Assembly: GCF_032854445.1 (NCBI RefSeq)
Contig: NC_088295.1
Location: 95,783,805-95,847,804, forward strand
Reading direction: 5' to 3'
Source: Liolophura sinensis
Lineage: Eukaryota; Mollusca; Polyplacophora; Chitonida; Chitonidae
Length of the DNA: 64,000 nucleotides
Shown here: one piece after another, positions 13,423-59,704 of the stretch
Position numbering within the stretch: the first letter of the stretch is position 1
Layout of the letters: the number at the start of each line of letters is the position of its first letter
Translations under genes and position numbers: made by a program
Notes under the pieces: model-generated
Told to the model about the DNA's origin: nothing
What the model saw: the letters and a program-made list of their open reading frames with translations, nothing else
Databases searched by the model: none

Positions 13423-13480
13423 ATGCTCAACCTGTGCTGCACTCTCATTTGCTGGCTAGTTTGGGCCAGTTACGGTGAAG
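13423..13480 (+). CDS. Gene A exon 1: signal peptide
   Basis: The ATG (AGAATGC context) begins a hydrophobic leader, MLNLCCTLICWLVWASYGE, ending in a strong donor AAG|GTAAGA in phase 1. The codon split is completed by GT at the start of exon 2, giving Gly. The last about 30 bp of this exon and its donor are the seed of the following tandem array. Confidence 0.85.
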
Positions 13481-16400
13481 GTAAGACAAACCCCAGTAGA
13501 TACGTCATTACTTGCAGTTACCTTGGAGGTAAGACAAACCCCAGTTGTCTATACGTCAACACCTGCTGGCTAGTGTGGGCCAGTCACCGTGGAGGTAAGA
13601 CAAACCCCAGTAGATATGCCATCACTTGCCGGATAGTGTGAGCCAGTTACCGTGAAGGTAAGACAAACCCCAGTAGATACGTCATCACTTGCAGTTACCG
13701 TGGAGGTAAGACAAACCCCAGTAGATATGCCATCACTTGCTGGATAGTGTGGGCCAGTTACCGTGGAGGTAAGACAAACCCCAGTAGATATGCCATCACT
13801 TGCTGGATAGTGTGGGCCAGTTACCGTGGAGGTAAAACAAACCCCAGTAGATATGCCCTCACTTGCTGGATAGTGTGGGCCAGTTACCGTCGAAGTAAGA
13901 AAAACCCCAGTAGATATGCCATCACCTGCTGGATAGTGTGGGCCAGTTACCGTGGAGGTAAGACAAACCCCAGTAGATACGTCATCACTTGCTGGATAGT
14001 GTGGGCCAGTTACCGTGGAGGTAAGACAAACCCCAGTAGATATGCCATCACTTGCTGGATAGTGTGGGCCAGTTACCGTCGAAGTAAGAAAAACCCCAGT
14101 AGATATGCCATCATTCGCTGGATAGTGTGGGCCAGTTACCGTGGAGGTAAGACAAACCCCAGTAGATATGCCATCATTCGCTGGATAGTGTGGGCCAGTT
14201 ACCGTCGAGGTAAGACAAACCCCAGTAGATATGCCATCACTTGCTGGATAGTGTGGGCCAGTTACCGTCGAGGTAAGATAAACCCCAGTAGATATGCCAT
14301 CACCTGCTGGATAGTGTGAGCCAGTTACCGTCGAGGTAAGACAAACCCCAATAGATATGCCATCACCTGCTGGATAGTGTGGGCCAGTTACCGTCGAAGT
14401 AAGAAAAACCCCAGTAGATATGCCATCACCTGCTGGATAGTGTGGGCCAGTTACCGTGGAGGTAAGATAAACCCCAGTAGATATGCCATCACCTGCTGGA
14501 TAGTGTGAGCCAGTTACCGCCGAGGTAAGACAAACCCCAATAGATATGCCATCACCTGCTGGATAGTGTGGGCCAGTTACCGTTGAAGTAAGAAAAACCC
14601 CAATAGATATGCCATCACCTGCTGGATAGTGTGGACCAGTTACCGTGGAGGTAAGACAAACCCCAGAAGATATGCCATCATTCGCTGGATAGTGTGGGCC
14701 AGTTACCGTGGAGGTAAGACAAACCCCATTAGATATGCCATCACCTGCTGGATAGTGTGGGCCAGTTACCGTGGAGGTAAGATAAACCCCAGTAGATATG
14801 CCATCACCTGCTGGATAGTGTGAGCCAGTTACCGTCGAGGTAAGACAAACCCCAATAGATATGCCATCACCTGCTGGATAGTGTGGGCCAGTTACCGTGG
14901 AGGTAAGACAAAAGACAGTAGTCTATACGTCAACACCTGCTGGGTAGCATGGGCCAGTAAGCAAATATGATGTAGATATAGAGAAATTCCTAAGTTTCAT
15001 TCATTTTTGTCTTTCTTTAACTCAGAGCCATTCCGCCATTCTTATTTCAACAAAGTTTTCTATGCGTGAAATTGTAAGCCTTCTTATATGTCTTTAAACT
15101 CTTTTAGTTGGATGAACCGTCAGATCAATAGTGAGACCACCATACATACATTCACATAAGCGACCCACCATACACATATTCACATAAGCGGCCCGCCATA
15201 CACACGTTCACATAAGCCGCCCACTATACATACATTCACATAAGCGTCCCACCATGCACACATTCACGTAAGCCGCCCACCATACATACATGCACATAAG
15301 CGTCCCACCATGCACACATTCACGTAAGCGACCCACCTTACACACATTCACATAAGCGGCCCACCATGCACACATTCACGTAAGCGACCCACCCTACACA
15401 CATTCACATAAGCGGCCCACCATGCACACATTCACGTAAGAGGCCCACCAAACATACATGCACATAAGCGTCCCACCATGCACACATTCACATAAGCGGC
15501 CCACCATACACACATTCACATAAGCGTCCCAACCTACACACATTCACATAAGCGGCCCGCCATACACACGTTCACATAAGCCGCCCACCATACATACATT
15601 CACATAAGCGTCCCACCATGCACACATTCACGTAAGCGACCCACCATGCACACATTCACATAAGCGGCCCGCCATACACACGTTCACATAGGCGCCCACC
15701 ATACATACATTCACATAAGCGCCCCACCATGCACACATTCACGTAAGCGACCCACCCTACACACATTCACGTAAGCGGCCCACCATGCACACATTCACGT
15801 AAGCGACCCACCCTACACACATTCACATAAGCGTCCCACCCTACACACATTCACATAAGCGGCCCACCATACATACATTCACATAAGCGTCCCACCATGC
15901 ACACATTCACATAAGCGACCCACCCTACACACATTCACATAAGCGGCCCACCATACACACGTTCACATAAGATGCCCACCATACATACATTCACATTAGC
16001 GACCCACCATACATACATTCACATAAGCGACCCACCATACACACATTCACATAAGCCGCTCACCATACATACATGCACATAAGCCGCCCACCGTACATAC
16101 ATTCACATTAGCGGCCCACCATACATACATTGACATAAGCGTCCCACCATACATACATTCACATAAGCGGCCCAACATACATATATTCACATAAGCGGCC
16201 CACCATACATACACTGACATAAGCGACCCACCATACATACATTCACATAAGCGTCCCACCATACATACACTCACATAAGCGTCCCACCATACATATATTC
16301 ACATAAGCGGCCCACCATACATACATTCACATAAGCAGCCCACCATACATACATTCACATAAGCGACCCATCATACATACAATCACATAGAGGCACACCA

Positions 16401-19400
16401 TACACTCATTCGCTTTTAAGCGGCCCACCATACATACATTCGCTTTTAAGTGGCCCACCATACATTCACTGGCTTTAAGCGGCCCACCTTACACACATTC
16501 GTTTATATATAGTTGTGACGTCATTTTTTTCTCTCAAACATGTCAATATTTAGTATATGATATTATGTGTATGGGTAATATACTCGGAGAACATTTCATT
16601 AAAAGCATTGGGTTGTTCGTTCTGTGTAAATTCTGTGTAAACAAACGTAAATTAATAAATAAACACATGTGGGTAGTTTACACATGTTCTAATCTGTCTT
16701 TTACAGGTTGCTATGGCAATTGGTCAAATGTCATCTTGGAAGTCCCTAAAGATGTAAAAGTGGAGTTATATTGTCTTGTGCAGTCCAAACACTGTTTAAA
16801 GCACGCGCCCATTGCCAGGGGCAGCTGGACGCTCAGTAGTAATAATACTATTGTGGCCAAATTGGATTCCATGGGAAATGAATCTGTTGTCTTACCTGGT
16901 TATCAGCTGGTAGAAAAGTTTACACTGATTGTGACCAAAACTCGGCCTGGAAAATGGGTCTATACGTGTCAAGCATACAACAAAACAGATGGGAGATTTC
17001 CGGTTCACCAGATTTCCCTAAATGTCAAAGGTAGACTTTATCGGATTTTTCTTTCATAACACGCTTATCACAGTTTTTCCATTTTCAGATAATTCTCCGA
17101 TTTGATATGAACTTGTAGATAACACATCAGAGCTTTGGAGTTTAAGTTTGTTCTGTCTGTTTAAGTTGAAAATCCACGTGTATATCCGTGATCAATGGCA
17201 GACAGAAAAAACTGCAGGGGAGGGTGGGGTGGGGTGTACGGGGGAGACTCCGTTGCCGATGTGATCATTTGTTTGGCGCAATGACCCAGAAGCCTGTCAG
17301 AAACGCGGTCGCTGTGAGTTCAAGTCCAGCTTATGCTGGCTTCATCTCCGGTCGTACATGGGAAGGTCTGCAGCAATCTTGGGATGCCCATGGGTTGGTT
17401 TCCTCCCACCATAATGCTAGCCGCCGTCGGATGTGGTTTATTCTTGAGTACGGCCGAAGACGTCATTCCGATAAATAAATAAATAAATGTTTCCACCCAC
17501 TTGAAATTCTGCTGCTCTTTAACTTCTTCAGATTCATCTCCGCAAGTCGTGAATGTTTCGCCTGGTAATGTCGTCACACTGAGTTGTCCCGTTGATGAAG
17601 GGTCAAAAGTCACGTGGTACAAGTTGACAACCAGTAGTGTGAAGATTAAGGAGGCTTCAGGAGTACAGCTGACCATCCTGGTGGTTAGCCAACTTGACAA
17701 TTACATTTGTGAGGTGAAAAGAAAACAAGGAGGGAGGGTACACACACAGCGCCATTATTTCTCCCTGAGTGTCACTTCAGGTAAGTCGTTGCTGGTGGAA
17801 ATGTGACTGGGTGGAAGAAAAGGATTAGGTACAAAATAATTCCATATGGAAAATCTTTGATATTAAGAAACATTTCCATCCACATGACATAATGTCTTAG
17901 TCATCTCGGTGTACGTTATGGTTAAGTTTCCATCCACATGACATAATGTCTTAGCCATCTCGGTGTACGTTATGGTGAAGTTTCCATCCACATGACATAA
18001 TGTCTTAACCATCTCGGTGTACGTTATGGTTAAGTTTCCATCCACATCACATAATGTCTTGTCCATCTCGGTGTACGTTATGGTTAAGTTTCCATCCACA
18101 TCACATAACGTCTTAGCCATCTCGGTGTACGTTATGGTTAAGTTTCCATCCACATCACATAACGTCTTAGCCATCTCGGTGTACGTTATGGTTAAGTTTC
18201 CATCCACATCACATAACGTCTTAGCCATCTCGGTGTACGTTATGGTGCAGTTTCCATCCACATGACATAATGTCTTAGCCATCTCGGTGTACGTTATGGT
18301 TAAGTTTCCATCCACATCACATAATGTCTTAGCCATCTCGGTGTACGTTATGGTTATGTTTCCATCCACATCACATAACGTCTTAGCCATCTCGGTGTAC
18401 GTTATGGTTAAGTTTCCATCCACATGACATAATGTCTTAGCCATCTCGGTGTACGTTATGGTGAAGTTTCCATCCACATCACATAACGTCTTAGCCATCT
18501 CGGTGTACGTTATGGTGAAGTTTCCATCCACATGACATAATGTCTTAGCCATCTCTGTGTACGTTATGGTTATGTTTCCATCCACATCACATATCGTCTT
18601 AACCACCTCGGTGTACGTTGTGGGCTAGACTATTTGCTGTGTCGAGTCATTTGGATTGAGCTAATTGGCTTTATTGGGTCCTGTGTACAGCGCTGAGTTG
18701 GCTGTCGGGTCATGTAGATAGCTGAGTTGGCTGTCGGGTCATGTAGATAGCTGAGTTGGCTGTCGGGTCATGTAGATAGCTGAGTTGACTGTCGGGTTAT
18801 TTTCAGCTGGGATTTGTTGGGTCATGTGGACTGGGAAGGGTACATCGTGTTTTATTTTGACTGGGCTGAGTTGGCTTGGGTTATTCGGGCTGAGCTGAGT
18901 GGGCTGTGTTGTGTCTTTTGGAGTTTTGGAGTTTTTGTCTTTGTTTTGGAGTTTTTTTTAGAGTTGGCTTTGTCGGGTTGACAGAGGTGTGTTGGCTCTC
19001 GGATCATTTTGGACAGAGATGAGTTGGCTGTCGGGTCATGTGGACAGAGATGTGATGGCTGTCGGGTCATGTGGACAGAGACGAGTTGGCTGTCCGGTCA
19101 TGTGGACAGAGGTGTGTTGGCTGTCCGGTCATGTGGACAGAGGTGTTTTGGCTGTCGGGTCATGTGGACAGAGGTGTTGGCTGTCGGGTCATGTGAACAG
19201 AGGTGTGTTGGCTGTTGGGCCATGTGGGCAGAGATGAGTTGGCTGTCGGGTCATGTGGACAGAGGTGTGTTGGCTGTCGGGTCATGTGAACAGAGGTGTG
19301 TTGGCTGTCGGGTCATGTGGACAGAGGTGAGTTGGCTGTTGGGTCATGTGCAGATATGAGTTGGCTGTTGGGTCATGTGGACAGAGATGAATTGGTTGTT

Positions 19401-22400
19401 GGGCCATGTGCAGATATGAGTTGGCTGTTGGGTCATGTGGACAGAGATGAATTGGCTGTTGGGCCATGTGCAGATATGAGTTGGCTGTTGGGTCATGTGG
19501 ACAGAGATGAATTGGCTGTTGGGCCATGTGCAGATATGAGTTGGCTGTTGGGTCATGTGGACTGAGATGAATTGGCTGTATCAGGTCATTTGGATCAGGC
19601 TTGGTTTGCTGCGCCGGGTAATTTTGATCGGATTAGCTTTACTGAGTTGGCTGTGTCGGGTCATTTGGGCCGAGCAGAGTTGGCTGTGTCGGGTCATTTG
19701 AGCCAAGCAGAGTTGGCTTTGTCGGGTCATTTGAGCTGGGTTGACTTGGCTGCATTGGGTCATTTGGGCTGTGTCGGATCATTGTGGCTGACCCTGAATG
19801 TTTGGATATACCTGTATGATTAATGTAAACGAACCATTAACCCTTTTTTGTTGCAGCCAACACCAAGGACTGGATTTTCCCTACATGTACATTTCTCGCC
19901 ATCGTCTTAATCCTAGGGCTTGTCATAGCCGTTGTTATCTGGTGGAAGCGAAATAAGAGGGGAGACAACGGTTAGTGTGTTGCTTCAGTTATTTGCCTTA
20001 CGTTATTGTACACTGTATGGCTGTACGTAGTATGCCTGTACACTGCACGCCTGTACATTGTATGTCTGTACACTGTATGCCTGTACAGTGTATGCCTGTA
20101 CATTGTATGCCTGTACAGTGTATGCCTGTACACTGTATACCTGTACACTGTATGTCTGTACACTGCATGCCTGTACACTGTATGCCTGTACACTGTATGC
20201 TTGTACACTGTATACCTGTACATTGTATGCTTGTACACTGTATGCCTGTGCACTGTATGTTTGTACACTGTATGCCTGTACACTGCATGCCTGTACACTT
20301 TATGCCTGTATACTGCATGTCTGTACAGTGTATATATGTACACTGCATGCCTGTACGCTGATGGCCTGTGCACTGTATACATGTACACTGCATGCCTGTG
20401 CACTGCATGCCTGTACACTGTATGCCGTACACTGTATGCCTGTACACTATATGCCTGTACACTACACGCCTGTACACTGCATACCTGTACACTGTATGCC
20501 TGTACACTACACGCCTGTACACTGCATACCTGTACACTGTATGCCTGTACACTACATGCCTGTACACTGTATGCCCGTACACTATGCCTGTACACTGTGT
20601 GTTTGTACACTGCATGCATGTACACTACATGCATCTACACTGTATGTCTGTACACTGCATGCCTGTACACTGTATGCCTGTACACTGTATGCTTGTACAC
20701 TGTATACCTGTACATTGCTTGCCTGTACATTGTATGCTTGTACACTGTATGCCTGTACATTGTATGCTTGTACACGGTATGCCTGTGCACTGTATGTTTG
20801 TACACTGTATGCCTGTACACTGCATGCTTGTACTCTGCATGCCTGTATACTGCATGTCTGTACAGTGTATATATGTACACTGCATGCCTGTACGCTGATG
20901 GCCTGTACACTGCATGCTTGTACACTGCATGCCTCTGCACTGTATGCCTGTACACTGCATGCATGTACACTATATACCTGTACACTGTATACTTGAACAC
21001 TGTATGCCTGTACACTGCATGCCTCTGCACTGTATGCCTGTACACACTGCATGCTTGTACACTGTATGCCTGTGCACTGTATTCCGTGCACTGTACGCCT
21101 GTACACTGCATGCTTGTACACTGGATGCCTGTACACTATATGCCTGTACATTGTATGCCTGTGCACTGTAGGCCTGTACACTATATGCCGGTACACTGTA
21201 TACTTGAGCACTGCATGCCTGTACACTGCATGCCTGTACACTATATGCCTGTACATTGTATGCCTGTGCACTGTAGGCCTGTACACTATATGCCGGTACA
21301 GTGCGTGCCTGTATAATGTATGCCTGTACACTGCATGCCTGTACACTGCATGCGTGTACACTGCATGCCTGTAAACTGTATGCCTGTACATTGTATGCCT
21401 GTACACTGCATGCCTTTACACTGTATGCCTGTACACTGTATGCCTGTACACCGTATGACTGTACACTAGGAGGTGGGTGTTATTTCTAGCATAACCTCTT
21501 TGCACACTTTGTTTTGGTTGTCCTTGACTACTCTTTGTCTGACCTACCCGACGTTTCACATTATCCAACATCTTGGTTTTTGGTATTGTCCTAAGCAGTT
21601 AAATTATGCTGGGCAATGACATTTATAACCTAGACACCGATACTGTCCCAGGCACTGTTATTGTCCATGACGCCGATGTTGTCCTTGACACTGATATTGT
21701 CCTTGACACTGATAATGTATTTGACTCTGATATTGCCCTTGACGCTAAAATTTTTCTTGACACTTATATTGCTCTTGACATTTATATTGTCCTTGTCAGT
21801 GATATCGTCCTTGGCACTGATATTGTCTACGGTACTGATATTGTCCTCGGCACTGAGATTGTCGTCGACCCTGATATTAACTTAGGCACTGAATATCTTA
21901 AACACTGATGAATTTATAGACTCTGAATTTATATCCTAGACACTTACATTGTCCTTGACACTGATATTATTCTCGGTACTGATATCAGCACAGGCACTGA
22001 TACCATTGTAAGCACCGATGCTATACTAGGCGTTGTACTTGTATCCTAGGCACTGATATTATCCTAGACACTTATATTATCCTTGTGTTACGACCCAGAC
22101 TGTCTGTATTATAAAGAGATGGCTTGTTCGAAATACATGACAGTTTAGCCGCACAAAAAAGTAACCAAAACCAGCAGATTTTATTTGACAACAATTTATT
22201 AGGTTTAAGAACAGATAACAAGACTTTTACAAATACTAAAGTACTTAAGTTTAACAAGAAAGGATAACAGTATCTATACAAATACTAAAGTACTTACACG
22301 AACAACATGTCAAGTCCAAACGGACGCATACATTCCACAATGCGGAAAACCATACAGGCATAAATGCACAAATAAGAGGGAAAATTCACAGTATAACTGA

Positions 22401-23531
22401 GTGTATGACGAAATATACACAAAATTCCACTGACAGGGTCCGTTTACTAATAAGCACTGTGTACACAAGAGCACAAATTAAATATACAAGTTCAGACTGA
22501 ACAAGTGCTCGGTGGAGATAGGATATAACAAAGCCAGAGGCTATAAAGACACCAAAATTCAGCGCAAAAGGCCTACTAAAGTAATACACAGCGAAAGCAT
22601 CCAAAACTCTCAATAATTCTCCTTTCTCCTCCTTTGACCTGCTTTCATAGGTCTTGTATAGACTGGTGGAATTCTCTAGAATAAGAAAATTCTTGAACAC
22701 TTGTTGTAAACAAACAGGCCCCGAACTCAGGGTATTCTGGAACATTCTAAGGCAGAGACAGACAGCAGGCTCTGAACTCAACATATGTAAACAAGCTAAA
22801 TTTAGAAGCTGACGGCAGCACATAACACTTGGCACCCATATTGTCCGAGACACTGTTAATTTTACAGGGTCTGATATTGTTCTAATGACTGACGTATTAG
22901 TATAACTAGTATTATCCTAGTCACTGATATTGTCATAATGACTGATGTTATCCTAGTAATATAATCTTAAGCACTGACATTAACCTGGCAACTAGTATTA
23001 TCGCAGGCACTGACATTATCCTAGTCACTGATATTGTCATAATGACTGATGTTATCCTAGTAATATAATCTTAAGCACTGATATTAACCTGGGAACTAGT
23101 ATTATCGCAGGCACTGACATTGTCCTAGTCACTGATATTGTCATAATGACTGATGTTATCCTAGTAATATAATCTTAAGCACTGATACTAACCTGGGAAC
23201 TAGTATTATCGCAGGCACTGACATTATCCTAGTCACTGATATTACCATATACATTTATAATTTCCTAGCACTGATTTTGTCCTAGGCACTGATATTGTCT
23301 TCATTTCCGCCCTGGTAAGCAGTGTTATCAAGTTTCCAGCCCCGAGCCTGTGCATTGATTACGATATCTTTGACTTCAGAGAGGGATGACAAAAAAAAGG
23401 TAGTTGAAATGTTATCGCTAAATTTCTTTTTATCCCCAGAAACGAAGGATGGGAAGACAGAAGGCCAAGGACCGGATGTAGTGCCGTTAACTGAGGGTGA
23501 AGTAAAACTGAACGGTTTGGGTCCCGTGTGA
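13423..23531 (+). CDS. Gene A: two-Ig-domain single-pass membrane receptor-like protein (5 exons, 278 aa)
   Basis: Assembled by hand from exons 13423-13480, 16707-17030, 17532-17780, 19857-19970 and 23440-23531. All four introns obey GT-AG and are phase 1, and the joined frame stays open to a TGA. Predicted protein: signal peptide (1 to about 18), Ig-like domain 1 (about 21-127, Cys42/Trp60/Cys107 with the PGKWVYTC motif), Ig-like domain 2 (128-210, Cys146/WYK at 156-158/Cys187), TM helix (about 217-240), basic stop-transfer (KRNKR) and a tail of about 35 residues without tyrosines. NxS/T sequons lie at residues 24, 65, 77, 111 and 135. One-exon-per-domain, phase-1 structure is typical of Ig superfamily genes. 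Gene B is a close tandem paralogue. Introns 1, 3 and 4 carry large minisatellites, intron 2 a SINE. Likely a cell-surface recognition or adhesion protein; the ligand is unknown. Confidence 0.85.
13450..14955. repeat. Exon-derived minisatellite, 63-bp unit, each copy with a 5' splice site
   Basis: About 24 tandem copies beginning inside exon 1 of gene A. Each unit repeats the exon end (tgggccagttaccgtggag in most copies), the donor gtaagac and about 30 bp of intron (aaaccccagtagatatgcc). The unit is 63 bp, or 21 codons, in the same frame as the signal peptide, so an ORF runs through many copies until variants with gtgtgagcc introduce a stop. A few copies are shortened to about 48 bp by loss of the ctggatagtgtgggcc part. 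Donor variants include gtaagac, gtaagat, gtaaaac and gtaagaa. Confidence 0.93.
15138..16503. repeat. Minisatellite array, 28-bp unit (gene A intron 1)
   Basis: About 49 copies of a 28-bp unit containing cacataagcggcccaccata. Copies alternate irregularly between cataca and cacaca and between gcggccc, gcgaccc and gcgtccc variants. Entirely within intron 1 of gene A. Confidence 0.95.
16707..17030 (+). CDS. Gene A exon 2: Ig-like domain 1
   Basis: Acceptor cttttacag|gt and donor aaag|gtagac, phase 1 at both ends, 324 bp, exactly the length of exon 2 of gene B. It encodes an Ig-type fold with VELYC, a central Trp (SWTL), and LIVTKTRPGKWVYTC. The paralogue has LIVNKTEPGKWLYKC at the same place. 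Additional Cys residues at 21 and 49 could form an extra disulfide. Confidence 0.88.
17270..17488 (+). mobile_element. SINE (family 1) in gene A intron 2
   Basis: Plus-orientation copy with the box-B-like gtgagttcaagtccagct, the internal cgtacatgggaaggtctgca, and a 3' end attcttgagtacggc followed by AAAT repeats. The tRNA-related 5' head is diverged or truncated. It ends only about 45 bp before the exon 3 acceptor and makes up nearly half of the intron. ORFs predicted across it are spurious. Confidence 0.85.
17532..17780 (+). CDS. Gene A exon 3: Ig-like domain 2
   Basis: Acceptor aacttcttcag|at and donor cttcag|gtaagt, both phase 1, 249 bp. It encodes VVTLSCPV, VTWYK, LTILVVSQLDNYIC and a C-terminal strand YFSLSV. 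The usual D-x-G-x-Y-x-C signature is reduced to QLDNYIC, and the domain is about 6 residues shorter than in gene B. Confidence 0.86.
17868..18625. repeat. Minisatellite array, 54-bp unit (gene A intron 3)
   Basis: About 14 copies of a 54-bp unit (core tcggtgtacgttatggttaa). Because 54 is a multiple of three, the minus strand has an uninterrupted ORF of 18-residue repeats (KTLCDVDGN). I regard that ORF as a repeat artefact. Variants atcaca/atgaca and taacg/taatg are intermixed. Confidence 0.94.
18690..19795. repeat. Minisatellite array, ~31-bp unit with a 60-bp higher-order segment (gene A intron 3)
   Basis: Repeats of gagttggctgtcgggtcatg with spacing of about 31 bp. At about 19340-19570 the array becomes a regular 60-bp dimer, alternating gtggacagagatgaattgg with gtgcagatatgagttgg. 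The right end (19570-19795) is made of older, longer variants. Confidence 0.92.
19857..19970 (+). CDS. Gene A exon 4: transmembrane segment
   Basis: Acceptor ttttgttgcag|cc and donor aacg|gttagt (phase 1), 114 bp. It encodes a membrane-proximal stalk, a hydrophobic helix (FLAIVLILGLVIAVVIWW) and the basic stop-transfer KRNKR. Gene B has a 111-bp exon of the same design. Confidence 0.85.
20006..21468. repeat. Minisatellite array, 15-bp unit (gene A intron 4)
   Basis: About 97 copies of ctgtacactgtatgc and close variants. The unit is five codons long, so several frames on both strands stay open for hundreds of residues. These long ORFs are not evidence of a gene. The unit includes the self-complementary GTAC and TGCA, so single strands could form many small hairpins. 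Confidence 0.95.
21612..22081. repeat. Minisatellite array, ~18-bp unit, left part (gene A intron 4)
   Basis: Diverged repeats of actgatattgtccttgac, split from the right part at 22832-23300 by an LTR insertion. Copies have drifted more than in most arrays of this window. Confidence 0.88.
22082..22831. mobile_element. Solo LTR (22086-22827) with 4-bp target duplication
   Basis: A 742-bp segment begins TGTTACGACC and ends CATAACA, a TG...CA unit with 5-bp terminal inversions (TGTTA/TAACA). It is flanked on both sides by cttg (22082-22085 and 22828-22831). It interrupts the 18-bp array cleanly. No gag/pol sequence is present, so it is a solo LTR left by recombination, by superfamily probably Gypsy-like. 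Orientation is not decided. Confidence 0.82.
22832..23300. repeat. Minisatellite array, ~18-bp unit, right part with 104-bp higher-order copies
   Basis: Continuation of the array at 21612-22081. Between about 22917 and 23240 three copies of a 104-bp block recur exactly spaced (tcactgatattgtcataatg at 22921, 23025 and 23129). Confidence 0.9.
23440..23531 (+). CDS. Gene A exon 5: cytoplasmic tail and stop
   Basis: Acceptor tttttatccccag|aa after a pyrimidine-rich tract. It encodes about 30 hydrophilic residues (starting ETKDGKTEGQGPDVV) ending LNGLGPV and TGA at 23529-23531. No tyrosine is present, so there is no ITIM or ITAM, in contrast to gene B. The 3'UTR probably follows; no clear AATAAA is visible nearby. 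Confidence 0.8.
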
Positions 23532-23784
23532 TACCTGCGATCATATCTGTATATATGTACAGTCTTCTGATGTAACAATTTGTTTCGCTAATTTGATTTG
23601 ATATGACGCTTATGTGTACAGAAGGTAGCTGGATTCGAACATTATCTCAGTTGTCAAGATGGTGTAATCTGCATGGTCGATCTCTAGGAACTCGGTGTCT
23701 AGAGTTCACGCTGCGTGCGCAAGCTCGGTTAGGTAGAACGCTGCGTGCACAATGATCTCTTTGTACAGTGTGAAATTAAATTAG

Positions 23785-24305
23785 TTCTCTCATGAACCTG
23801 TTGTTTGATGGTTGTCTGTGCATACATGTAGATTAGTGCTCTCATGAACCTGTTGTTTGATTATTGTCTGTGCATACATGTAGATTAGTGCTCTCATGAA
23901 CCTGTTGTTTGATGGTTGTCTGTGCATACATGTAGATTAGTGCTCTCATGAACCTGTTGTTTGATGATTGTCTGTGCATACATGTAGATTAGTTCTCTCC
24001 TGAACCTGTTGTTTGATGATTGTCTGTGCATACATGTAGATTAGTGCTCTCATGAACTTGTTGTTTGATGATTGTCTGTGCATACATGAAGATTAGTGCT
24101 CTCATGAACCTGTTGTTTGATGGTTGTCTGTGCATACATGTAGATTAGTGCTCTCATGAACCTGTTGTTTGATGATTGTCTGTGCATACATGTAGATTAG
24201 TGCTCTCATGAACCTGTTGTTTGATGATTGTCTGTGCATACATGTAGATTAGTGCTCTCATGAACCTGTTGTTTGATGGTTGTTTGGTATACATGTAAAT
24301 TAGTG
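23785..24305. repeat. Minisatellite array, 52-bp unit downstream of gene A
   Basis: About ten very similar copies of a 52-bp unit (core agtgctctcatgaacctgtt). It lies about 250 bp after the gene A stop codon and may be in its 3'UTR. Confidence 0.93.
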
Positions 24306-24564
24306 CGCTCACATAAAATCTCAAAATGTCGAAATCTTGTGTTTAACAAGTGTTCACTTTATATTCTGTGTTTACAGTATTTTCGTGTGAAAGAAAGACA
24401 TGGACATCTTGGAAATTAAAATGTTTCCAATTTCTGTCAATGCTGAAACATTTATTATTGACGTGATCGACGTTTCTCCGCGCTGCAAACATTATGGAAT
24501 GTCTTACTGAGGTAAACTGGCAAGAGGTCGTATTTCATCGGTTACGGTTACGTGTGACCATTTG

Positions 24565-25628
24565 CCACCTTTCTCTCTGTCGTTGCTGCTCTGGTTTTAC
24601 TCCCTATGATGCACGTCTATCACACTGTCGTTACTGCTCTGGTTATACTCTCTGTGGTGTACGTCTGTCACACTGTCGTCACTGCTTTGGTTTTACTCTC
24701 TGTGGTGTACATCTATCACACTGTCGTCACCGCTCTGGTTTTACTCTCTGTGGTGTACGTCTGTCACACTGTCGTTGCTGCTCTGGTTTTACTCCCTATG
24801 ATGCACGTCTATCACACTGTCGTTACTGCTCTGGTTATACTCTCTGTGGTGTACGTCTGTCACACTGTCGTCACTGCTCTGGTTTTACTCTCTGTGGTGT
24901 ACGTCTGTCACACTGTCGTCACTGCTCTGGTTTTACTCTCTGTGGTGTACGTCTATCACACTGTCGTTGCTGCTCTGGTTTTACTCCCTATGATGCACGT
25001 CTATCACACTGTCGTTACTGCTCTGGTTATACTCTCTGTGGTGTACGTCTGTCACACTGTCGTCACTGCTCTGGTTTTACTCTCTGTGGTGTACGTCTGT
25101 CACACTGTCGTCACTGCTCTGGTTTTACTCTCTGTGGTGTACGTCTATCACGCTGTCGTTTCTGCTTTGGTTTTACTCTCTGTGGTGTACATCTATCACA
25201 CTGTCGTTACTGCTCTGGTTTTACTCTCTGTGGTGTACGTCTATCACACTGTCGTTGCTGCTCTGGTTTTACTCTCTGTGGTGTACGTCTATCACACTGT
25301 CGTTGCTGCTCTGGTTTTACTCCCTATGATGCACGTCTATCACACTGTCGTCGCTGCTCTGGTTTTAGTCTCTATGCTGTATGTCTACCACACTGTCGAT
25401 GCTACTCTGGTTTTAGTCTCTATGCTGTATGTCTATCACACTGTCGTTGCTGCTCTGGTTTTACTCCCTGTGGTGTACGTCTATCACACTGTCGTTGCTG
25501 CTCTGGTTTTACTCCCTATGATGCACGTCTATCACACTGTCGTTGCTGCTTTGGTTTTACTCTCTGTGGTGTACGTCTATCACGCTGTCGTTGCTGCTCT
25601 GGTTTTACTCTCTATTGTGTGGTCTTTT
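24565..25628. repeat. Minisatellite array, 48-bp unit with 192-bp higher-order repeats
   Basis: About 22 copies of a 48-bp unit (core tctatcacactgtcgttgct). The variant tccctatgatgcacg recurs at 24601, 24793 and 24985, that is every 192 bp or four units. Two plus-strand frames are open throughout (399 and 360 codons) because 48 is a multiple of three. One of them reads as Cys-rich 16-residue repeats. Confidence 0.94.
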
Positions 25629-25689
25629 CTATTGTATTTCCTACAAAGACCTACATCCCCGAGATCTGGCCACTTTGCAATGTTATAAT

Positions 25690-26160
25690 GTGATCTCACC
25701 AAACACTGGTGTTGTATGAACACAAAGTTGTGTTCGTTCTAACGCGTCTTGTGTTGAAAGAATTGAACACAAGACGCGTTGGATGTTATACACAATACTG
25801 TCAGTAATATGCATATTTTGTTCTACTAACTCAAGTTAGGTAAACTATATTATATGCATAAATTATCTCATTTGCGTTCACCACAAGTTTTTGTTTTATT
25901 GTTTCGTAAAACTCTGTACTTGTACGTGTACTTCACATTTGTTCAACACATGTTTATGTCGAGGTACCACATTTCTGTGTTGAATGAAAACAACACAAGA
26001 TGCTGTGTTAGATTTCAACACAAATGAATTTTGTGTGATTATATTAAATGCGATGACAACCGCATTCTCAGTAATTGTAGGCCAGTGCCGTCTAGCAATT
26101 TGCAGCTATCAGCATTTTACCTAATTTTGTTAAGTATGTACATAGCTGTAATGAAACCCT
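25690..26160. other. Insert with a perfect 15-bp hairpin between duplicated arrays
   Basis: AT-rich sequence containing a perfect inverted repeat at 25741-25780: aacgcgtcttgtgtt, a 10-base loop, then its exact reverse complement. Motifs of the form aacacaag or its complement recur at 25718, 25735 and 25990-26035. This suggests a small palindromic element or MITE, but no target duplication could be fixed. Confidence 0.45.
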
Positions 26161-26217
26161 AACTGAGGTAAATTGACAGGTGGTCAGATCTCACCGGTAT
26201 TATGTGATCATTGGCTA

Positions 26218-26412
26218 CAAATCACACTGTCGTCGCTGCTCTGGTTTCGCATCCTATGCTGTACGTCTATCACTATGTCCTCGCTGCTTTGGTTTTACTC
26301 TCTATGCTGTATGTCTATCACTATGTCCTCGCTGCTCTGGCCTTACTCTCTCTTCTGTACGTCTATCGCATTGTCGTCGCTACTCTGGTTTTACTTTCTA
26401 TACCGTAGGTCT
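26218..26412. repeat. Second, diverged copy of the 48-bp array
   Basis: Four copies of the same 48-bp family as 24565-25628. The preceding sequence at about 26160-26215 (actgaggtaaattgacaggt) also matches the sequence preceding the large array at 24507 (actgaggtaaactggcaaga). The array and its flank were therefore duplicated together. Confidence 0.85.
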
Positions 26413-27068
26413 TTTATTGCATTACCAATCATATTCGATTTGATTTGTTCACCCAAAAGCGCATAGGGCATATGACATAAATAATATATAAAATAGGTCC
26501 AATATTTATGCATCTTTAACCTAATTCTTACATAATCAGACTGTAAAATAACCCAAGTCCTTATGTAAGCCTCAGTCGTAGCACGACTCTATTCAGTGCC
26601 GTCTGTAAACTGGAAGCTACCTAAATAAATCTTTGGACTTGTTATTACGAGTTATTTCCGAGAACAGATCTGGTTTATGAAGTGCCAGTGTTGTATATTT
26701 AATATATGTAATATGCCTGGAAATCGATAGCAGAAACATACAGGCTCTTCAAGTGATGACTCGGTTTTCGGTTTCAGATTACATGACTGATAACGCCATT
26801 ATACGCTTATTGTAGACCATCTAGCGCCTCATTTATATAGTAAACATGCGGATGCAGACATCCTGGTTCGTAAATTTCCTTCAGGTTTGGAAGGTCAGAG
26901 TACACGTACGTAAACACAGGTCTTGCACAATAACAATTGCCGATCAGAATTGCAATTCTATACTAGCCTTACTCATTAATGTACGCTTGACTGAGTGAGT
27001 CATAAATATGAGCGAGGGCTTAGGGTTTAAGGTCGTACTAAACAATTCTTCAGTAATACAGTAATATA
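26413..27068. other. Single-copy AT-rich spacer
   Basis: No exon, RNA gene or repeat family that I recognise. Confidence 0.45.
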
Positions 27069-28264
27069 GTACAGCCACAGATATTTACTTGACGCCATGG
27101 TATTCAGGTACAGCCACAGATATTTACTTGACGCCATGGTATTCAGGTACAGCCACAGATATTTACTTGACGCCATGGTATTCAGGTACAGCCACAGATA
27201 TTTACTTGACGCCATGATATTCAGGTACAGCCACAGATATTTACTTGACGCCATGATATTCAGGTACAGCCACAGATATTTACATGACGTAATTGTGTTC
27301 AGGTACAGCCACAGATATTTACTTGACGCCATGGTATTCAGGTACATCCACAGATATTTACATGACGCCATGATATTCAGGTACAGCCACAGATATTTAC
27401 TTGACGCCATGGTATTCAGGTACAGTCACAGATATTTATATGACGCCATGATATTCAGGTACAGCCACAGATATTTATATGACGTAATTGTGTTCAGGTA
27501 CAGCCACAGATATTTACTTGACGCCATGGTATTCAGGTGCAGCCACAGATATTTACATGACGCCATGATATTCAGGTACAGCCACAGATATTTACTTGAC
27601 GCCATGGTATTCAGGTACAGCCACAGATGTTTACTTGACGCCATGGTATTCAGGTATAGCCACAGATATTTACATGACGTCATGATATTCAGGTACAGCC
27701 ACAGATATTTACTTGACGCCATGGTATTCAGGTACAGCCACAGATGTTTACTTGACGCCATGGTATTCAGGTACAGCCACAGATATTTACATGACGTCAT
27801 GGTATTCAGGTACAGCCACAGATATTCACATGACGCCATGGTATTCAGGTACAGCCACAGATATTCACATGACGTCATGGTATTCAGGTACAGCCACAGA
27901 TATTTACTTGACGCCATGGTATTCAGGTACAGCCACAGATATTCACATGACGCCATGGTATTCAGGTACATCCACAGATATTTACTTGACGCCATGATAT
28001 TCAGGTACAGCCACAGATATTTACATGACATAATTGTGTTCAGGTACAGCCACAGATATTTACATGACGCCATGGTATTTAGGTACAGCCACAGATATTT
28101 ACATGATGCCATGGTATTCAGGTACAGCCACAGATATTTACATGACGTAATTGTGTTCAGGTACAGCCACAGATATTTACATGACGTAATTGTGTTTAGG
28201 TACAGTCACAGATATTTATATGACGTAATTGTGTTCAGGTACAGCCACAGATATTTACGAGACA
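27069..28264. repeat. Minisatellite array, 39-bp unit
   Basis: About 31 copies of a 39-bp unit (core ggtacagccacagatattta). Unit variants ttgacgccatgg, atgacgtcatgg and atgacgtaattg are interspersed. Several contain the palindrome TGACGTCA, a CRE-like octamer. Both strands are open because 39 is 13 codons. Confidence 0.95.
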
Positions 28265-28568
28265 CGATTGTATTGTTGTCTTCTTTTTAACTTGCCTATA
28301 TTCAGGTGTCTGAAAATCAGTGTTATTATAATCGATATTAAATATCAATGCTGTGTAGAGCGTGGGGTGTTACGTGTTATTTGAAAATTTCTACATGCGA
28401 GGAATCTCCGCATCTAATAATACAGCCTGGGTATTTCCGCGCTCAGGTCACACGCCAATGCGTAACTGGAAAATCAGTTTCAGTTTCCCATTTCTCCCAT
28501 TTCTTATAGGCGGCCTCTATCGTAAGATTTTCTTTCATTACAGCCAGCTACTGCTGAGCTTAGTCGTG
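28265..28568. promoter_or_regulatory. Upstream region of gene B (promoter/5'UTR expected)
   Basis: Single-copy sequence between the 39-bp array and the gene B start codon. A promoter is inferred from position only; I see no definite core element. Confidence 0.3.
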
Positions 28569-28632
28569 ATGTCTTCCCCTTATCCGTACTGTATTCTAGC
28601 GTATTGGTTGACATGGACTGTTAACTATGGAG
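28569..28632 (+). CDS. Gene B exon 1: signal peptide
   Basis: The ATG opens MSSPYPYCILAYWLTWTVNY followed by Gly and a GGAG|GTAAGAG donor in phase 1. The pattern W-L-x-W-x-x-x-Y-G at the exon end parallels gene A exon 1, supporting common descent. Confidence 0.8.
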
Positions 28633-31600
28633 GTAAGAGGTATACATTGTATACACAGGTTATACCGTGTCCCAGTTCACACTGAGTTCTTAATTGACAT
28701 GCCGTGATGCGCAAGTTAACCGTTCGTCTATCAGCTACTGTATGTACTTCACCCAACAGGTCAACACGTCAACCCAACTTAGGATCAAAACATCAGAACA
28801 GGAATAGGCCTAACTTATGTAGTTAAGTAGGTGTTTATACCAGTGGTGGCTATATGCCAGTTGTGGTTATATGGCAGTTGTGGCTATATGCCAGTTGTGG
28901 TTATATGCCAGTTGTGGTTATATGCCAGTTGTAGATATATGCCTGCTGTGGTTATATGCCAGCTGTGGTTATATGCCAGTTGTGGATACATGCCAGTTGT
29001 GGTTATATACCAGCTGTGGTTATATGCCAGTTGTGGCTATATGCCAGTTGTGGCTATATACCAGTTGTGGTTATATGCCAGTTGTTGCTAAATGCCAGTT
29101 GTGGATATATGCCAGCTATGGTTAACTGGCATTGTGGATATGCCAGTTGTGGATATATGCCAGTTGTGGTTATATGCCAGTTGTGGTTATATGCCAGTTG
29201 TGGTTATATGCCAGTTGTGGTTATATGCCAGTTATGGTTATATGCCAGTTGTGGTTATATGCCAGTTGTGGTTATATGCCAGTTATGGTTATATGCCAGT
29301 TGTGGTTATATGCCAGTTGTGGATATATGCCAGTAGTGGTTATGTGCCAGTTGTGGCTATATACCAGTTGTGGTTATATGCCAGTTGTGGCTATATGCCA
29401 GTTGTGAATATATGCCAATTGTGGTTAACTGGCATTGTGGATATGCCAGTTGTGGCTATATGCCAGTTGTGGTTGTATGCCAGTTGTGGTTAACTGGCAT
29501 GCCAGTGGTGGTTATATGCCAGTTGCGGTTAAATGTCAGTTGTAGTTATATGCCAGTTGTAGTTATATGCCAGTTGTAGTTATATGCCAGTTGTGGATAT
29601 ATGCCAGTTGTGGATACATGCCAGTTGTAGATATATACCAGTTGTGGTCATATGCCAGTTGTGGTTGTATGCCAGTTGTGGATATATGCCAGTTGTGGTT
29701 GTATGCCAGTTGTGGATATATGCCAGTTGTGGTTATATGCCAGTTGTGGTTATATGCCAGTTGTGGATACATGCCAGTTGTAGATATATACCAGTTGTGG
29801 TCATATGCCAGTTGTGGTTGTATGCCAGTTGTGGTTATATGCCAGTTGTGGTTGTATGCCAGTTGTGGATATATGCCAGTTGTGGTTGTATGCCAGTTGT
29901 GGATATATGCCAGTTGTGGTTATATGCCAGTTGTGGATATATGCCAGTTGTGGATACATGCCAGTTGTAGATATATACCAGTTGTGGTCATATGCCAGTT
30001 GTGGTTGTATGCCAGTTGTGGTTATATGCCAGTTGTGGTTGTATGCCAGTTGTGGATATATGCCAGTTGTGGTTATATGCCAGTTGTGGTTATATGCCAG
30101 TTGTGGATATGCCAGTTGTGGATATGCCAGTTGTGGTTATATGCCAGTTGTGGTTATATGCCAGTTGTGGATATGCCAGTTGTGGATATGCCAGTTGCGG
30201 AAATATGCCAGTTGTGGCTATATACCAGTTGTGGTTATATGCCATTTGTGGCTATATGCCAGTTGTGGCTATATGCCAGTTGTGGTTATATACCAGTTGT
30301 GGTTATATGACAGTTGTGGTTGTATGCCAGTTGTAGTTATATGCCAGTTGTGGCTATATGCCAGTTGTGGCTATATGCCAGTTGTGGTTGTATGCCAGTT
30401 GTGGATATATGCCAGTTGTGGTTATATGCCAGTTGTAGTTATATGCCAGTTGTTATATGCCAGTTGTGGTTATATACCAGTTGTAGTTATATGCCAGTTG
30501 TGGATATGCCAGTTGTGGATATGCCAGTTGTGGTTATATCCCAGTTGTGATTATATGGGTGATTCTACGAAAAGTGACCCCATTACCGTCACGCGCTTTA
30601 TATATTAAATTTCAGATCTATATAGACATATTTCACGTCATTTTCAATATAATGTTAATGAATGATGATTAAAAGAGTTTCCTGCAATTTTATCATGAAC
30701 CACATTAAGTTTTTGGGGGGGAAATTTTGAAGTTTTGTCTTACTTTTCTTTGTGTCACTATGATATACTGTCACAATGAAACAACAATTTCTGTTTGATT
30801 TAACTAACAAAATTTTTACAAGTGGTTTGAATTTGAAACTCCCAATTCACTCACATCCTGTCAATCATTCGGCTGCCCATTAAATATAGAGGGCGCAACT
30901 GAGACTAGTCACGTGTTCTGAAAACAGACGACATACTTTGCGATACATATGGAGCAATAATTATTTATCTGCTGTGCAAATTTTCATGTAAGTATTCTTG
31001 TCCATTGAGTCTATGATTAATTTGTCTTTACCCTTCACCATCCTGATAATTAAGTTGTCTTAATAATAAGCTCATCTTCGCTTTATTTTTCCATCCCTAA
31101 TGTCGATGACATTCACTTTATTTTACAATCCCTAATGTCGATGACAATCACTTTATTTTACAATCCTTCATGTCGATGACAATCACTTTATTTTTCCATC
31201 CCTAATGTCGATGACAATCACTTTATTTTACAATCCTTGATGTTGATGACAATCACTTTATTTTACAATCCTTGATGTCGATGACAATCACTTTATTTTA
31301 CAATCCCTAATGTCGATGACAATCACTTTATTTTACAATCCCTAATGTCGATGATAATCACTTTATTTTACAACCCTTGATGTTGATGACAATCACTTTA
31401 TTTTTCCATCCCTGATGTTGATAACAATTCTCACAAATCTCATGATGTATACACACAATCTGTACCTGGACAGTTACCTAATAAAGGTCTTGATATATAA
31501 ACACAGTGCGCACCTGGACACTTACCTGACAAACCCCTTGCTCTTGATGACATTCACTTTATTTTGCAATCCTTGATGTTGATCCCATTCACTTTGTTTT

Positions 31601-34600
31601 AACAATCCCAGATGTCGATGACAATCACTTTATTTTACAATCCCTGATATTGATGACAGTTACTTTATTTTTCCATCCCTGATGTTAATAACAATTCCGA
31701 TAAATCTCATGATGTATACACACAACCTGCACTTGGACAGTTACCTGATAAATCTCGTGATGTATAAACACTGGCGCACTGGGGCACCTGGACAGTTACC
31801 TGACAATCCCCCTGACGTATACACACAGTCCACACCTGGACAGTTACCTGACAAAGGCCCTGATGTATACACACAGTCAGCACCTGGACAGTTACCTGAC
31901 AAATCTCCTGATGTATACACCCAATCCGTATCTGGACAGTTACCTGAAAGGTTTGATTGTCTAACAATCTACATACTTGTTTTTGTCATTTCGTTCTCAC
32001 AGGCTGCTCTGACAGAAACCCCCCTGTTACGATCGACGTGTCAGTACCAAAAAGTGTCAGTGTTGAACTACCCTGTCTTATTGGCTACCGGTTGTCAGGG
32101 CATCCGTCCTTTGAGAGAGGCTGGTGGGAACTTAACAGTCAGGATAACGTGGTCAAAAAGGATTCTTCCGGAACAGTAAATAGTTCAGAAGGTTATGGGA
32201 TAACTGACGAGTTTTCTCTGATCGTGAACAAAACTGAGCCCGGAAAATGGTTGTATAAGTGCACAGTGATGAACGATACAGCCCTCGACAACCTACGACA
32301 ACAGCTGACTACACTCGTCGTCACAGGTACGTCTATAGGCCGTCCAGAAAACGACAGTCATTGACAGTCTCCATAAACTTTCTTTAAATACAATGTTAAC
32401 ACTATTAAGAACTGGGAAAGTTGCCTATTCACCATTTTAAACACTTCGCTCTTGCTTATCCAGATGACGTCACAGAGGTCATTAATCGATCTTCCGGTAA
32501 TGACGTCACATTGCATTGCCCTGCTGATAAAGGATCTCTGGCCACGTGGTATAAGGGGATGAGCATACCCAGGAAGACTGTAGCCGCCAGTGCGCCCAGC
32601 CCAGGGTCAGAGTTCACGATACCGTCGGCTTCGGAGTCAGATTCGGGGATTTATGTCTGTGACGTTATCGCTGAGAACCACGGCCAAGTCAAGAGAAAAC
32701 TCCTGTATTTCGCGGTGTCTGTCACTGAGGGTAGGTTCATTATCATAAACTGGTGTCCGCTTCGTTGGCCTTGTGTTTATATCATCCGCCTCGAAGTCGG
32801 GAGACCTGGGATGAAACTTGAGTCGGGTCCTTCCAAAGCCTGTAAAAATGGTAGGCCTACTTGTTGCTGCCTAGCTTGGCGCTTAACACTGATAGATTAG
32901 AGCGAGCAAACAAGATTGGTTGGTCCGGTGTCAGTATAATGAGACTGGATGGGGTGTCATGCCTGATGTCTTCGGCCTGATACTTCAATTGCGGCAGCAC
33001 TTTGGCAGTATGGATTCGCCCTGCACAGTATATGTTCACATTCCTAGTGACTCCTCGTCCTCATATGGCTGAAAAATTGTTAAGTACGACGTTAAATCCC
33101 AAGCATAAATAAGATGAGTTTATCTGTTTTCCTTGTTTTGGGGCTTTATAAAAACATAAATCCTGTTACAAGGGAACTAATCATCAATTTTCCTTGGTTG
33201 TAGCTGAAGGGGACGGGCTCCAGCTAAGCCTGATAGTTAGCACGGCAGTGATACTATGTGTCGTGTTAGCAGTAGGAGTTATATGCTACAGAAGGAGGAA
33301 GACGAGAAACACAGGTGAGTCGGTATCTATTCTGGACTTCACGTACTGATGCGTGTCACAACTGAAGAACTTTCGTCTAAGATGACAATCAAATTTACTT
33401 GTCCTCTCTTGGTATCGTACTAGATGTTTATTATTTAACACAAGATCTCAGTAACGAGCCTTAGTAACTGCACTTCTGGTATACGATGATGACATTAATA
33501 ACACTTTCTTCATGATAACTTCAATAATAACACCTTTTTGATGATATCTTCAGTAATGGCATCTTCTTGATGATAGCTTCAGTAAGGACACTTTCTTCAT
33601 GATAGCTTCAGTAATGACACCTCCTTGATGATACCTTCGCTTATGACACCTTCTTAATGATAAGTTCAGTACTGACACGTTCTTGATGATACCTTCAGGA
33701 CTGACACCTTCTTGATAATAGCTTTAGTAATGACCCCTTCTTGATGATAGCTTCAGTACTGACACCTTCTTGATGATAGCTTCAGTATTGACACCTTTTT
33801 GATGATAGGTTCAGTACTGACATCTTCTTGATGATGACTTCATTAATGGCATCTCCTTAATGATAGCTTCAGTACTGACACGTTCTTGATGACAGCTTCA
33901 GTGATGACACCTTTTTGATGATAGCTTCATTAATGAGACCTTCTTGATGATAACTTCAGTAATGACACCTCCTTAATGATAGCTTCAGGACTGACACCTC
34001 CTTAATGATAGCTTCAGGACTGACACTTTCTTGATGATAGCTTCAGGACTGACACCTCCTTAATGATAGCTTCAGGACTGACACGTTCTTGATGATAGCT
34101 TCAGGACTGACACCTCCTTAATGATAGCTTCAGGACTGACACGTTCTTAGCTTCAGTAATGACACCTTCTTGATGATAGTTTCCTCAATGACACCTCCTT
34201 GATGATAGCTTCAATGACACCCCCATAACGATATCTTCAGTGCTGACACTTCTTGATGATAGCTTCAGTAATGACACCTTTTTGATGATAACTTTAGTGG
34301 TGACACCTTTTTGATGATATCTTCAGTAGCGACACTTCCTTGAAGATAGCTTCAGTACTGACACGTTCTTGATGATAGCTTCAATTACCTTGTGCCCATG
34401 ACCTCTGTGGTGGCTCCTCTCACCTACAGGGATTATTTTTGTACCTCTTGTCTGTGTTTTTACAAGTATCTCTTCATGCCCATGACATCAGTGATGGCCC
34501 TAGTGTGCTCTTCCTTCAGACATAGTTTTCTGAACCTTCAGGTCGGGATGATACAAGTATTCGATATCAGTCATCTGTCTCCCAGACTCCAGATGTGTGC

Positions 34601-58640: not shown

Positions 58641-59131
58641 ACAGGCCTGATAACTAGTATTCTTTTATGTGCTTTTGGTACATTACTTGTGGTAATGGGT
58701 CACATACTAAGTAAATGTAGACGGCATATGTACCGCGTGTTTAAGACATATAAGCAGGATAATAACTCATCTGTGAGAGGGTCTTACATGTGGCAACATA
58801 CCTTGTTTAATGCAACAGCAATAATTTAATTGTTTTGTACAGGTATCATACTTGAAAACACAATGAAAACGCTTATTTTACACACACAACAAACGGTTGT
58901 ATGAACCGAGTTGTTGACTTTCCCGCGCTGCGTATTTTCATTGGATAATACAGAGACATTCATGAGCCTCATTTCTGACCTGGAAAGTCAAATACCGGCT
59001 TTGATACCATAGAAAAAGCCTGCTCAATTTTAGTCATCTAACTATTTGATAAAAAAATACATTGTTGTCTCTGTTTTGTGCTCACAGAAATCCCATCCGG
59101 AGAGGACAAGGGTCTGTTATAAATATTGAAG
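58641..59131. promoter_or_regulatory. Upstream/5'UTR of the EF-hand gene
   Basis: Single-copy sequence. An acceptor-like gtctctgttttgtgctcacag ends at about 59088, so the bases from there to 59131 are probably 5'UTR of the coding exon. An in-frame TAA at 59120-59122 confirms that translation starts at 59132. Confidence 0.45.
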
Positions 59132-59704
59132 ATGAGCAAGTCGAGACTTCAAGCGAAGTGGCGAAACTTTTTTTGTATGTTGGACGAAGATGGTGACGAG
59201 CAGATTACAGTGGAAGATTTTGGCCTAAAGGCTCAGCGGATCATAGACAGTTACGGACTGGAAGAGCTGCTCAGAGTGAGGTGCACACAGATCCTATTGA
59301 GGTGGTGGCACATCTGCCAGGATCTCCTTGGAGATCCGAAACCCAAGAAAGTCTCCAAACAGCAGTTTGTGGAAATCTTGAGCAAGCTTTACTGCACTGA
59401 CAAAGATAAACTGGAGCAGACTATGAGGGAATTGAGCATGTATCTATTCGATCTGATGGACGCGGATGGGGACGGGTCGATTACGTCGGACGAACTAGAC
59501 AAGATGAACAAATGCTTAGGGATGAAGAACAGCTCACTGAACGCCGCCATCTTTGACGCCTGGGACGAGGATCAAGACGGTGAAATCTCGCGACAGGAGT
59601 ATTCAACAGGCATGATAGCTTATCTGACCAGTAATGACCCACAGAATGACTATGGCTTTGTGTTTCAGTATGAGCAAAACGTGATCCACAACAAGAGAAG
59701 ATAA
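59132..59704 (+). CDS. EF-hand calcium-binding protein, sarcoplasmic calcium-binding protein / calexcitin-like (190 aa)
   Basis: Uninterrupted 190-codon frame starting at ATG with A at -3. EF-hand loops: EF1 at 18-29 (DEDGDEQITVED, with Glu instead of Gly at loop position 6 and Asp at position 12), EF3 at 110-121 (DADGDGSITSDE, canonical), EF4 at 145-156 (DEDQDGEISRQE, canonical). The expected second loop (about 67-79, GDPKPKKVSKQQF) has lost its ligands. Length, the spacing of loops, the Trp-rich segment between EF1 and EF2 (LLRWWHIC) and the C-terminal SNDPQNDYGFVF block fit invertebrate SCPs and calexcitins, cytosolic Ca2+ buffers or sensors of muscle and neurons. No signal peptide or TM. 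The coding region lacks introns, unusual for this family and possibly a retrocopy, although the upstream acceptor argues for a UTR intron. Confidence 0.9.
   Translation: MSKSRLQAKWRNFFCMLDEDGDEQITVEDFGLKAQRIIDSYGLEELLRVRCTQILLRWWHICQDLLGDPKPKKVSKQQFVEILSKLYCTDKDKLEQTMRELSMYLFDLMDADGDGSITSDELDKMNKCLGMKNSSLNAAIFDAWDEDQDGEISRQEYSTGMIAYLTSNDPQNDYGFVFQYEQNVIHNKRR

Follow-up and report, generated by a model that had tools for sequence, protein, structure and literature searches.

A minisatellite over the end of a putative signal-peptide exon repeats the 5′ splice site of a chiton immunoglobulin-domain gene, with similar arrays at other genes

Introduction

The closest described relatives of the locus reported here are the mirages of amphioxus and a VNTR in the human gene ABCA7. 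Mirages are minisatellites that span exon–intron boundaries, known from Adh3 in Branchiostoma and from the globin genes BflGb6 and BflGb9, and RT-PCR suggests that regular splicing is undisturbed by their presence (PMC3087553). The ABCA7 VNTR is located in intron 18 and has a unit of 25 bp, with 23.7 units in the reference and about 12–427 in people, and the retention of one unit, which corresponds to the use of the second donor, amounts to 2 ± 1% (PMC5954066).

A minisatellite from the chiton Liolophura sinensis belongs to this known kind. It is found in a window of 64,000 nucleotides (the whole stretch of DNA that was analysed), to which all positions refer unless a scaffold is named. As a single locus, it is probably a neutral by-product of repeat growth, and the recurrence of comparable arrays at other genes is the more interesting result.

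Genomic Setting

The assembly GCA_032854445.1 (PMC11068029), whose species has since been corrected to Liolophura sinensis (PMC12441733), was searched over 609,464,459 bases in 632 contigs, with scaffold_1 accounting for 96,433,062 bases. Since its HiFi reads have a mean length of 8.3 kb (14x; PMC11068029), they can span the array, which is 1.5 kb long. The distance between the window and the end of scaffold_1 is 0.59 Mb, and in the assembly paper a telomere repeat is tabulated at the start of this scaffold only (PMC11068029).

The surroundings are rich in repeats. Tandem repeats with a period of at least 10 and a length above 150 bp make up 51% of the window, whereas its flanking 10-kb stretches reach 76% on one side and 33% on the other; the coverage is 9.8% or less in 17 out of 20 samples from scaffold_1, and the median of all 20 is 2.7%. 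The three high-repeat samples, at 2.5, 90, and 93 Mb, are near scaffold ends, and together with the window and its flanks they span a coverage of 33–76%, compared with a few percent in the interior. In another part of the assembly, contig C99 (108,685 bases) holds seven copies of COX1 about 15.5 kb apart, and probably consists of head-to-tail mitochondrial genomes produced by the assembly. The mitochondrial order ND3-ND2-COX1-COX2-ATP8-ATP6 fits that of a mollusc, the names except COX1 coming from our own reading.

The Host Gene

The array starts in a putative first exon (13423..13480, + strand), delimited by its sequence features. This exon of 58 bases would comprise a start codon, the signal peptide MLNLCCTLICWLVWASYGE, and one additional base, ending in phase 1, and its last ~36 bases constitute the first copy of the array. 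A signal-peptide scan of the + strand returned seven candidates, three of which are upstream of the first Ig domain (Ig1), and exon 1 is the sole candidate among those three with a GTAAG donor.

The remaining exons, all on the + strand, encode four Ig domains and a membrane anchor. Exon 2 (16707..17030), preceded by an acceptor AG at 16705-16706, encodes Ig1, with a weak match to Ig_2 (E 0.057, below the cut-off), while exon 3 (17532..17780) encodes Ig2, recognized by its sequence and by a match to Ig_3 below the Pfam cut-off (E 6.2e-5). Exon 4 (32003..32326) holds Ig3, which is 40% identical to Ig1 and has no Pfam family on its own, and exon 5 (32464..32730) holds Ig4, which is 43% identical to Ig2 and matches Ig_3 in part (E 3.3e-4, below the cut-off). 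From its sequence, exon 6 (33204..33314) reads as a transmembrane segment and the start of a cytoplasmic tail. All these exons are read as joined in phase 1, and the stretch from 13423 to 33314, with signal peptide, Ig1 to Ig4, and transmembrane segment, as encoding one type I membrane protein. The original prediction had given its gene A too short an extent and had implied a second gene; the latter was rejected, as the resemblance of Ig1 to Ig3 and of Ig2 to Ig4 reads better as one gene with four Ig domains.

Cytoplasmic exons 3′ of 33314 were looked for, but not identified. Whole-genome searches in which the best candidates were scored did not reveal a close paralogue of this gene: Ig1 retrieved two matches, corresponding to Ig1 and Ig3 of the same gene, and Ig2 retrieved three, corresponding to Ig2, Ig4, and a third one at E 0.6. 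Elsewhere in the window, an EF-hand open frame (59123-59704) resembles a sarcoplasmic calcium-binding protein.

Structure of the Array

The minisatellite extends over 13445..14956 (+ strand), as delimited from the sequence, Tandem Repeats Finder, and the match to the consensus. Its main unit of 63 bp consists of the tail of exon 1, the donor, and approximately 30 bases of intron, and 24 units lie between 25 GTAA donors. The listing of donors in the array yields 25 GTAA[GA] sites from 13481 to 14957, 24 of which read GTAAG, in agreement with the original count of about 24 tandem 5′ splice sites, most of them GTAAG. The longer motif AG|GTAAG is present at 19 of the 25 sites; the others are GTAAA at 13832, GAA|GTAAG at 13895, 14084, 14399, and 14588, and CCA|GTAAG at 14957. 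The spacings between successive donors are 48, 66, 63, and 48, followed by nineteen of 63 and one of 54, each of them a multiple of 3.

The repeat crosses the boundary between the putative exon and its intron, copying bases of both, as in the mirages. Counting leftward from the donor, 31 out of 36 bases of the exon tail are identical to the unit consensus, and so are 32 out of 36 in the first intron copy. Apart from the self match, BLAST of exon 1 and its 60-base flanks against the window gave matches with E values as low as 4.9e-32, every one of them inside the array. Tandem Repeats Finder places the start of the array at 13515, omitting the exon part, and the overlap with the exon rests on the consensus identity and on BLAST. 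Thus, the tandem copying of exon end, donor, and intron that had been proposed for this locus is real, and its growth from the exon end is supported by a homology between exon tail and unit that is not due to chance. As in ABCA7, the array begins at a canonical donor that is repeated in each unit; in the chiton, the repeat includes the exon tail too. The core units are homogenised while the edge units diverge, as in the mirages, and by eye the units at 13529 (the second) and 14903 (the last) have in common a variant segment that the 63-bp core units lack.

The first 5′ splice site, AAG|GTAAGA, is located at 13481..13486 (+). If used, the second donor (13529..13534, +) would add 16 residues in frame and the third one (13595..13600, +) would add 38. 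The latter is the last donor before the first in-frame stop, a TGA at 13639..13641 (+), which would act as a premature stop for all 22 later donors, so that an open frame is possible from 13481, 13529, and 13595 only. The original prediction had been right about the first donor and the acceptor (16706/16707), but had placed the next two donors at 13530 and 13594. It had also anticipated that every donor ahead of a copy with a stop would be joined to exon 2 in frame, which is right, although the TGA leaves no more than three such donors.

The same intron holds a second, unrelated minisatellite of 28 bp (15137..16500, +), detected by Tandem Repeats Finder. Long open frames cross arrays whose period is a multiple of three, at 24577-25620 (+) and at 13570-14922 (−); the latter is an antisense frame of 450 codons over the 63-bp array, which exists because the unit is stop-free in one frame. 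One such frame comprises 376 codons with a hydrophobic repeat of 16 residues. These open frames are probably incidental.

Constraint on Units and Donors

Constraint was analysed in 20 of the 24 units, leaving out the two of 48 bp and those of 66 and 54 bp. Variable columns (17 out of 63) are distributed over the three codon positions as 5, 6, and 6, and differences as 17, 18, and 19; no codon-position bias was found among these 20 units. The GTAAG motif holds one difference in the 20 units, a conservation no better than that of 28 of the 63 five-base windows, and a G to A change at −1, which weakens the donor, has spread to four of them. An A at +5 occurs once in the array (13832).

The phase is preserved because the unit is 63 bp long. 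Within the window, 14 out of 36 arrays have periods divisible by 3, as do 24 out of 73 in all the DNA scanned; this is the level expected by chance, and therefore the uniform phase is no evidence of use. Selection on the reading frame was rejected on both grounds, the equality of codon positions and the chance level of these periods, and neither frame nor donor shows the conservation above background that a selected generator of isoforms would demand. The motif [ACG]AG|GTRAG is present in most copies of only one of the 73 arrays, that of 63 bp, a rarity that is expected if its donor derives from the exon.

Strength and Accessibility of the Donors

The pairing of the donors with U1 is nearly equal, with −9.6 for most array donors versus −9.5 for that of exon 1, while the donor PWM gives 10.35 for most array donors versus 11.14 for exon 1, a value tied by the donor at 13658. 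A hairpin, UUACC(GUGGA)GGUAA, can cover the donor in most copies, but not in exon 1, where the corresponding bases are UUACG and GAAG. When U1 pairing is combined with opening energy, the exon-1 donor ranks 1, 2, 1, and 2 out of 25 under four folding settings, and 1 co-transcriptionally. Under one folding setting, the median opening energy of the array is 4.1 kcal/mol, which exceeds that of the other five donors of the gene (2.6–3.1). However, this value falls inside the quartiles of the other 16 AGGTRAG sites of the window (2.93–4.92, with a median of 3.69), and the masking of array donors by the hairpin is consequently a weak explanation. For this reason, the position nearest the cap is given the most weight.

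Recurrence at Other Genes

Across the whole genome, three spaced copies of AGGTAAG matched at 1785 + 1994 places, versus 1275 + 645 for the reversed control, and the stricter CAGGTAAGT triple matched at 152 + 230, versus 102 + 74. Long arrays inflate these numbers, which we do not take as proof of enrichment. Among the matches listed, which come from the front of scaffold_1, 13 clusters of our own grouping were sampled: all seven of the first list, whose 5′ flanks were read, and six of the 18 further ones of the second.

Four of these 13 donor-bearing clusters begin at an exon end supported by homology. They correspond to a zinc-binding dehydrogenase (L040; 68-bp unit; scaffold_1 595,700-596,900; PF00107, E 2.4e-9), to Raptor (L044; 61 bp; 2,083,400-2,084,700; phmmer E 1.8e-15), where the donor is repeated at least four more times, to RPC1, the large subunit of RNA polymerase III (L047; 44 bp; 14,889,354-14,890,054, − strand; E 5.9e-8), and to a GH31 alpha-glucosidase (L048; 39 bp; 26,352,973-26,353,673; PF01055, E 5.5e-13), where the frame is open through the first copies. 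Each of these sister arrays repeats the last bases of the exon, with 17–20 of the last 20 matching the second copy, together with the donor. With the 63-bp locus included, two out of five exon-end arrays have units that are multiples of three, and three of the sisters do not.

Regarding the other database searches with these peptides, that of the dehydrogenase matched nothing in the PDB at an E of 0.001, and in NCBIfam had only matches below the cut-off (threonine dehydrogenase, E 4.4e-5), whereas that of RPC1 had no family in either Pfam or NCBIfam. Two Pfam matches of the Raptor peptide (E 0.065 and 0.079) were taken as chance. Among the nine clusters without exon support, L041 and L049 were searched, and their peptides had no Pfam match, while L038, L039, L042, L043, L045, L046, and L050 were left out of the homology search; for L039, L049, and L050, the sequence read barely reaches the edge of the array.

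The own donor of RPC1 is GTAAAT, with a U1 pairing of −8.3, while five later copies read GTAAGT and are stronger (−12.9 to −13.7). The frame would be shifted by four of the five later donors read in RPC1, three out of four in Raptor, and two out of three in the dehydrogenase. In GH31, five later donors were read as stronger than its own, and in frame. Because most later donors shift the frame, the first one is needed for a functional mRNA of RPC1 and Raptor, and it would therefore usually win at both genes, assuming that they are needed in the chiton as in other animals.

We consider it an evenly balanced proposition that minisatellites multiplying the donor at exon ends form a genome-wide class in the chiton that extends to conserved genes, RPC1 and Raptor among them. 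Neither a boundary array in a mollusc nor its recurrence in conserved genes was found in print among the matches listed of a search of open-licence papers (titles and starts of abstracts), which is not proof of absence. The value of the class lies in arrays where as many as two dozen nearly identical donors compete for one acceptor, in some conserved genes with most of the alternative donors shifting the frame. If the class were genuine, it would offer a large natural experiment in how the first donor comes to be chosen by the spliceosome when many nearly identical ones follow. In conserved genes like those two, several donors of equal or greater strength, tens of bases downstream, would have to be passed over. 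Leaky use would then give rise to minor isoforms that are polymorphic, with coding inserts for units that are multiples of three (the Ig receptor and GH31) and nonsense elsewhere. This raises questions about the first-donor rule, about its leakiness, and about whether the length of the repeat sets the leak, for which ABCA7 provides a parallel from human disease.

Origin of the Array and Rival Explanations

The array is probably a minisatellite grown by slippage over the exon–intron boundary, with the first donor mainly used and the rest either silent or leaking nonsense transcripts. It would have nucleated across the 3′ boundary of the signal-peptide exon, and would have grown by slippage or unequal exchange, like dozens of arrays in this repeat-rich end of the scaffold. 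As the exon tail and the donor chanced to fall within the unit, this growth would have left the first intron with near-copies of the 5′ splice site, 24 in addition to the original. Being the nearest to the cap and, less surely, lacking the hairpin that can cover most copies, the first donor is expected to serve most of the mRNA, although the comparable U1 pairing of most array donors argues against such a preference. The later donors would be mostly ignored, leading to premature-stop transcripts when used, and no more than two minor isoforms would appear in frame (+16 and +38 residues), accidental rather than selected.

The copies may also act as decoys or tune splicing. According to such a model, competition among them for U1 would channel a share of the pre-mRNA, dependent on the length of the array, into transcripts with premature stops that are decayed. 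The predominance of AG|GTAAG, its near-equal pairing with U1, and the stop that follows for 22 donors would all suit this model, and the removal of VNTR6-1 alters TERT splicing, in that case via a G-quadruplex. Longer ABCA7 alleles are associated with reduced expression and increased skipping of exon 19, but the isoform from the donor copy did not vary with the length of the array (PMC5954066). This, together with the absence of constraint on units and donors, makes tuning of expression unlikely. Far less can be said for the array as a generator of isoforms, in which alternative donors insert 21-residue blocks between the signal peptide and Ig1. It was suggested by the single phase of all donors and by a main unit of 21 codons; however, the stop after the third donor leaves steps of 16 and 38 residues as the only usable ones, no codon position stands out, periods divisible by three are at chance, and three out of four sister arrays have other periods. 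The functional modules of 21 residues that had been envisaged are thus not supported, and a role of the array in generating isoforms is very improbable.

The AG|GT copies could also be dual-specific sites, with parts of the array being spliced out as small introns, as tandem sites of this type reported for UBC would suggest (PMC10809524). Nevertheless, no pyrimidine tract was seen by eye before the AG of the unit, and the acceptor of intron 1 is located 1.75 kb beyond the array rather than within it, so we give hardly any credence to this possibility. It is just as hard to believe that exon 1 does not lie at 13423-13480 and that the array is just another minisatellite, intronic or intergenic, with GTAAG by chance. 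The thousands of genome-wide pattern matches, compared with about half as many for the reversed control, and the nine sampled clusters without exon support would fit a chance origin. On the other hand, exon 1 combines a start codon, a hydrophobic core, a phase-1 donor, and a matching acceptor; it has no competitor with a GTAAG donor upstream of Ig1; arrays with donors in most copies are as rare as one in 73; and four other donor-bearing arrays adjoin exons supported by homology.

Comparison with Known Systems

The mirages of amphioxus resemble the chiton array in being minisatellite-like tandem duplications over an exon–intron boundary, with many AG/GT copies and with edge units that escape homogenisation, including in BflGb9 a case at the 3′ end of an exon (PMC3087553). 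They differ in belonging to a cephalochordate and in their number of units, with 3 and 6 in two haplotypes of BflGb6 versus 24 in the chiton (PMC3087553). The ABCA7 VNTR shares with the chiton array a start at the exon's own donor GT, which is repeated in each unit (PMC5954066). The length of its unit is not a multiple of 3. However, this unit begins at the GT, with no copy of the exon tail described in the available excerpt (PMC5954066). Length variation and RT-PCR data have been provided for the mirages (PMC3087553), and donor use, polymorphism, and an effect on expression have been measured for ABCA7 (PMC5954066).

Two other systems are related. In the human internal tandem repeats of segmental duplications, minisatellite expansion also alters exon–intron boundaries, although their units average 30 bp, are repeated four times, and are supported by transcripts (PMC2812944). 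Similarly, the polyubiquitin gene UBC holds tandem AG|GT sites like those of the chiton, but its repeats are coding, and both splice sites are inside the array (PMC10809524).
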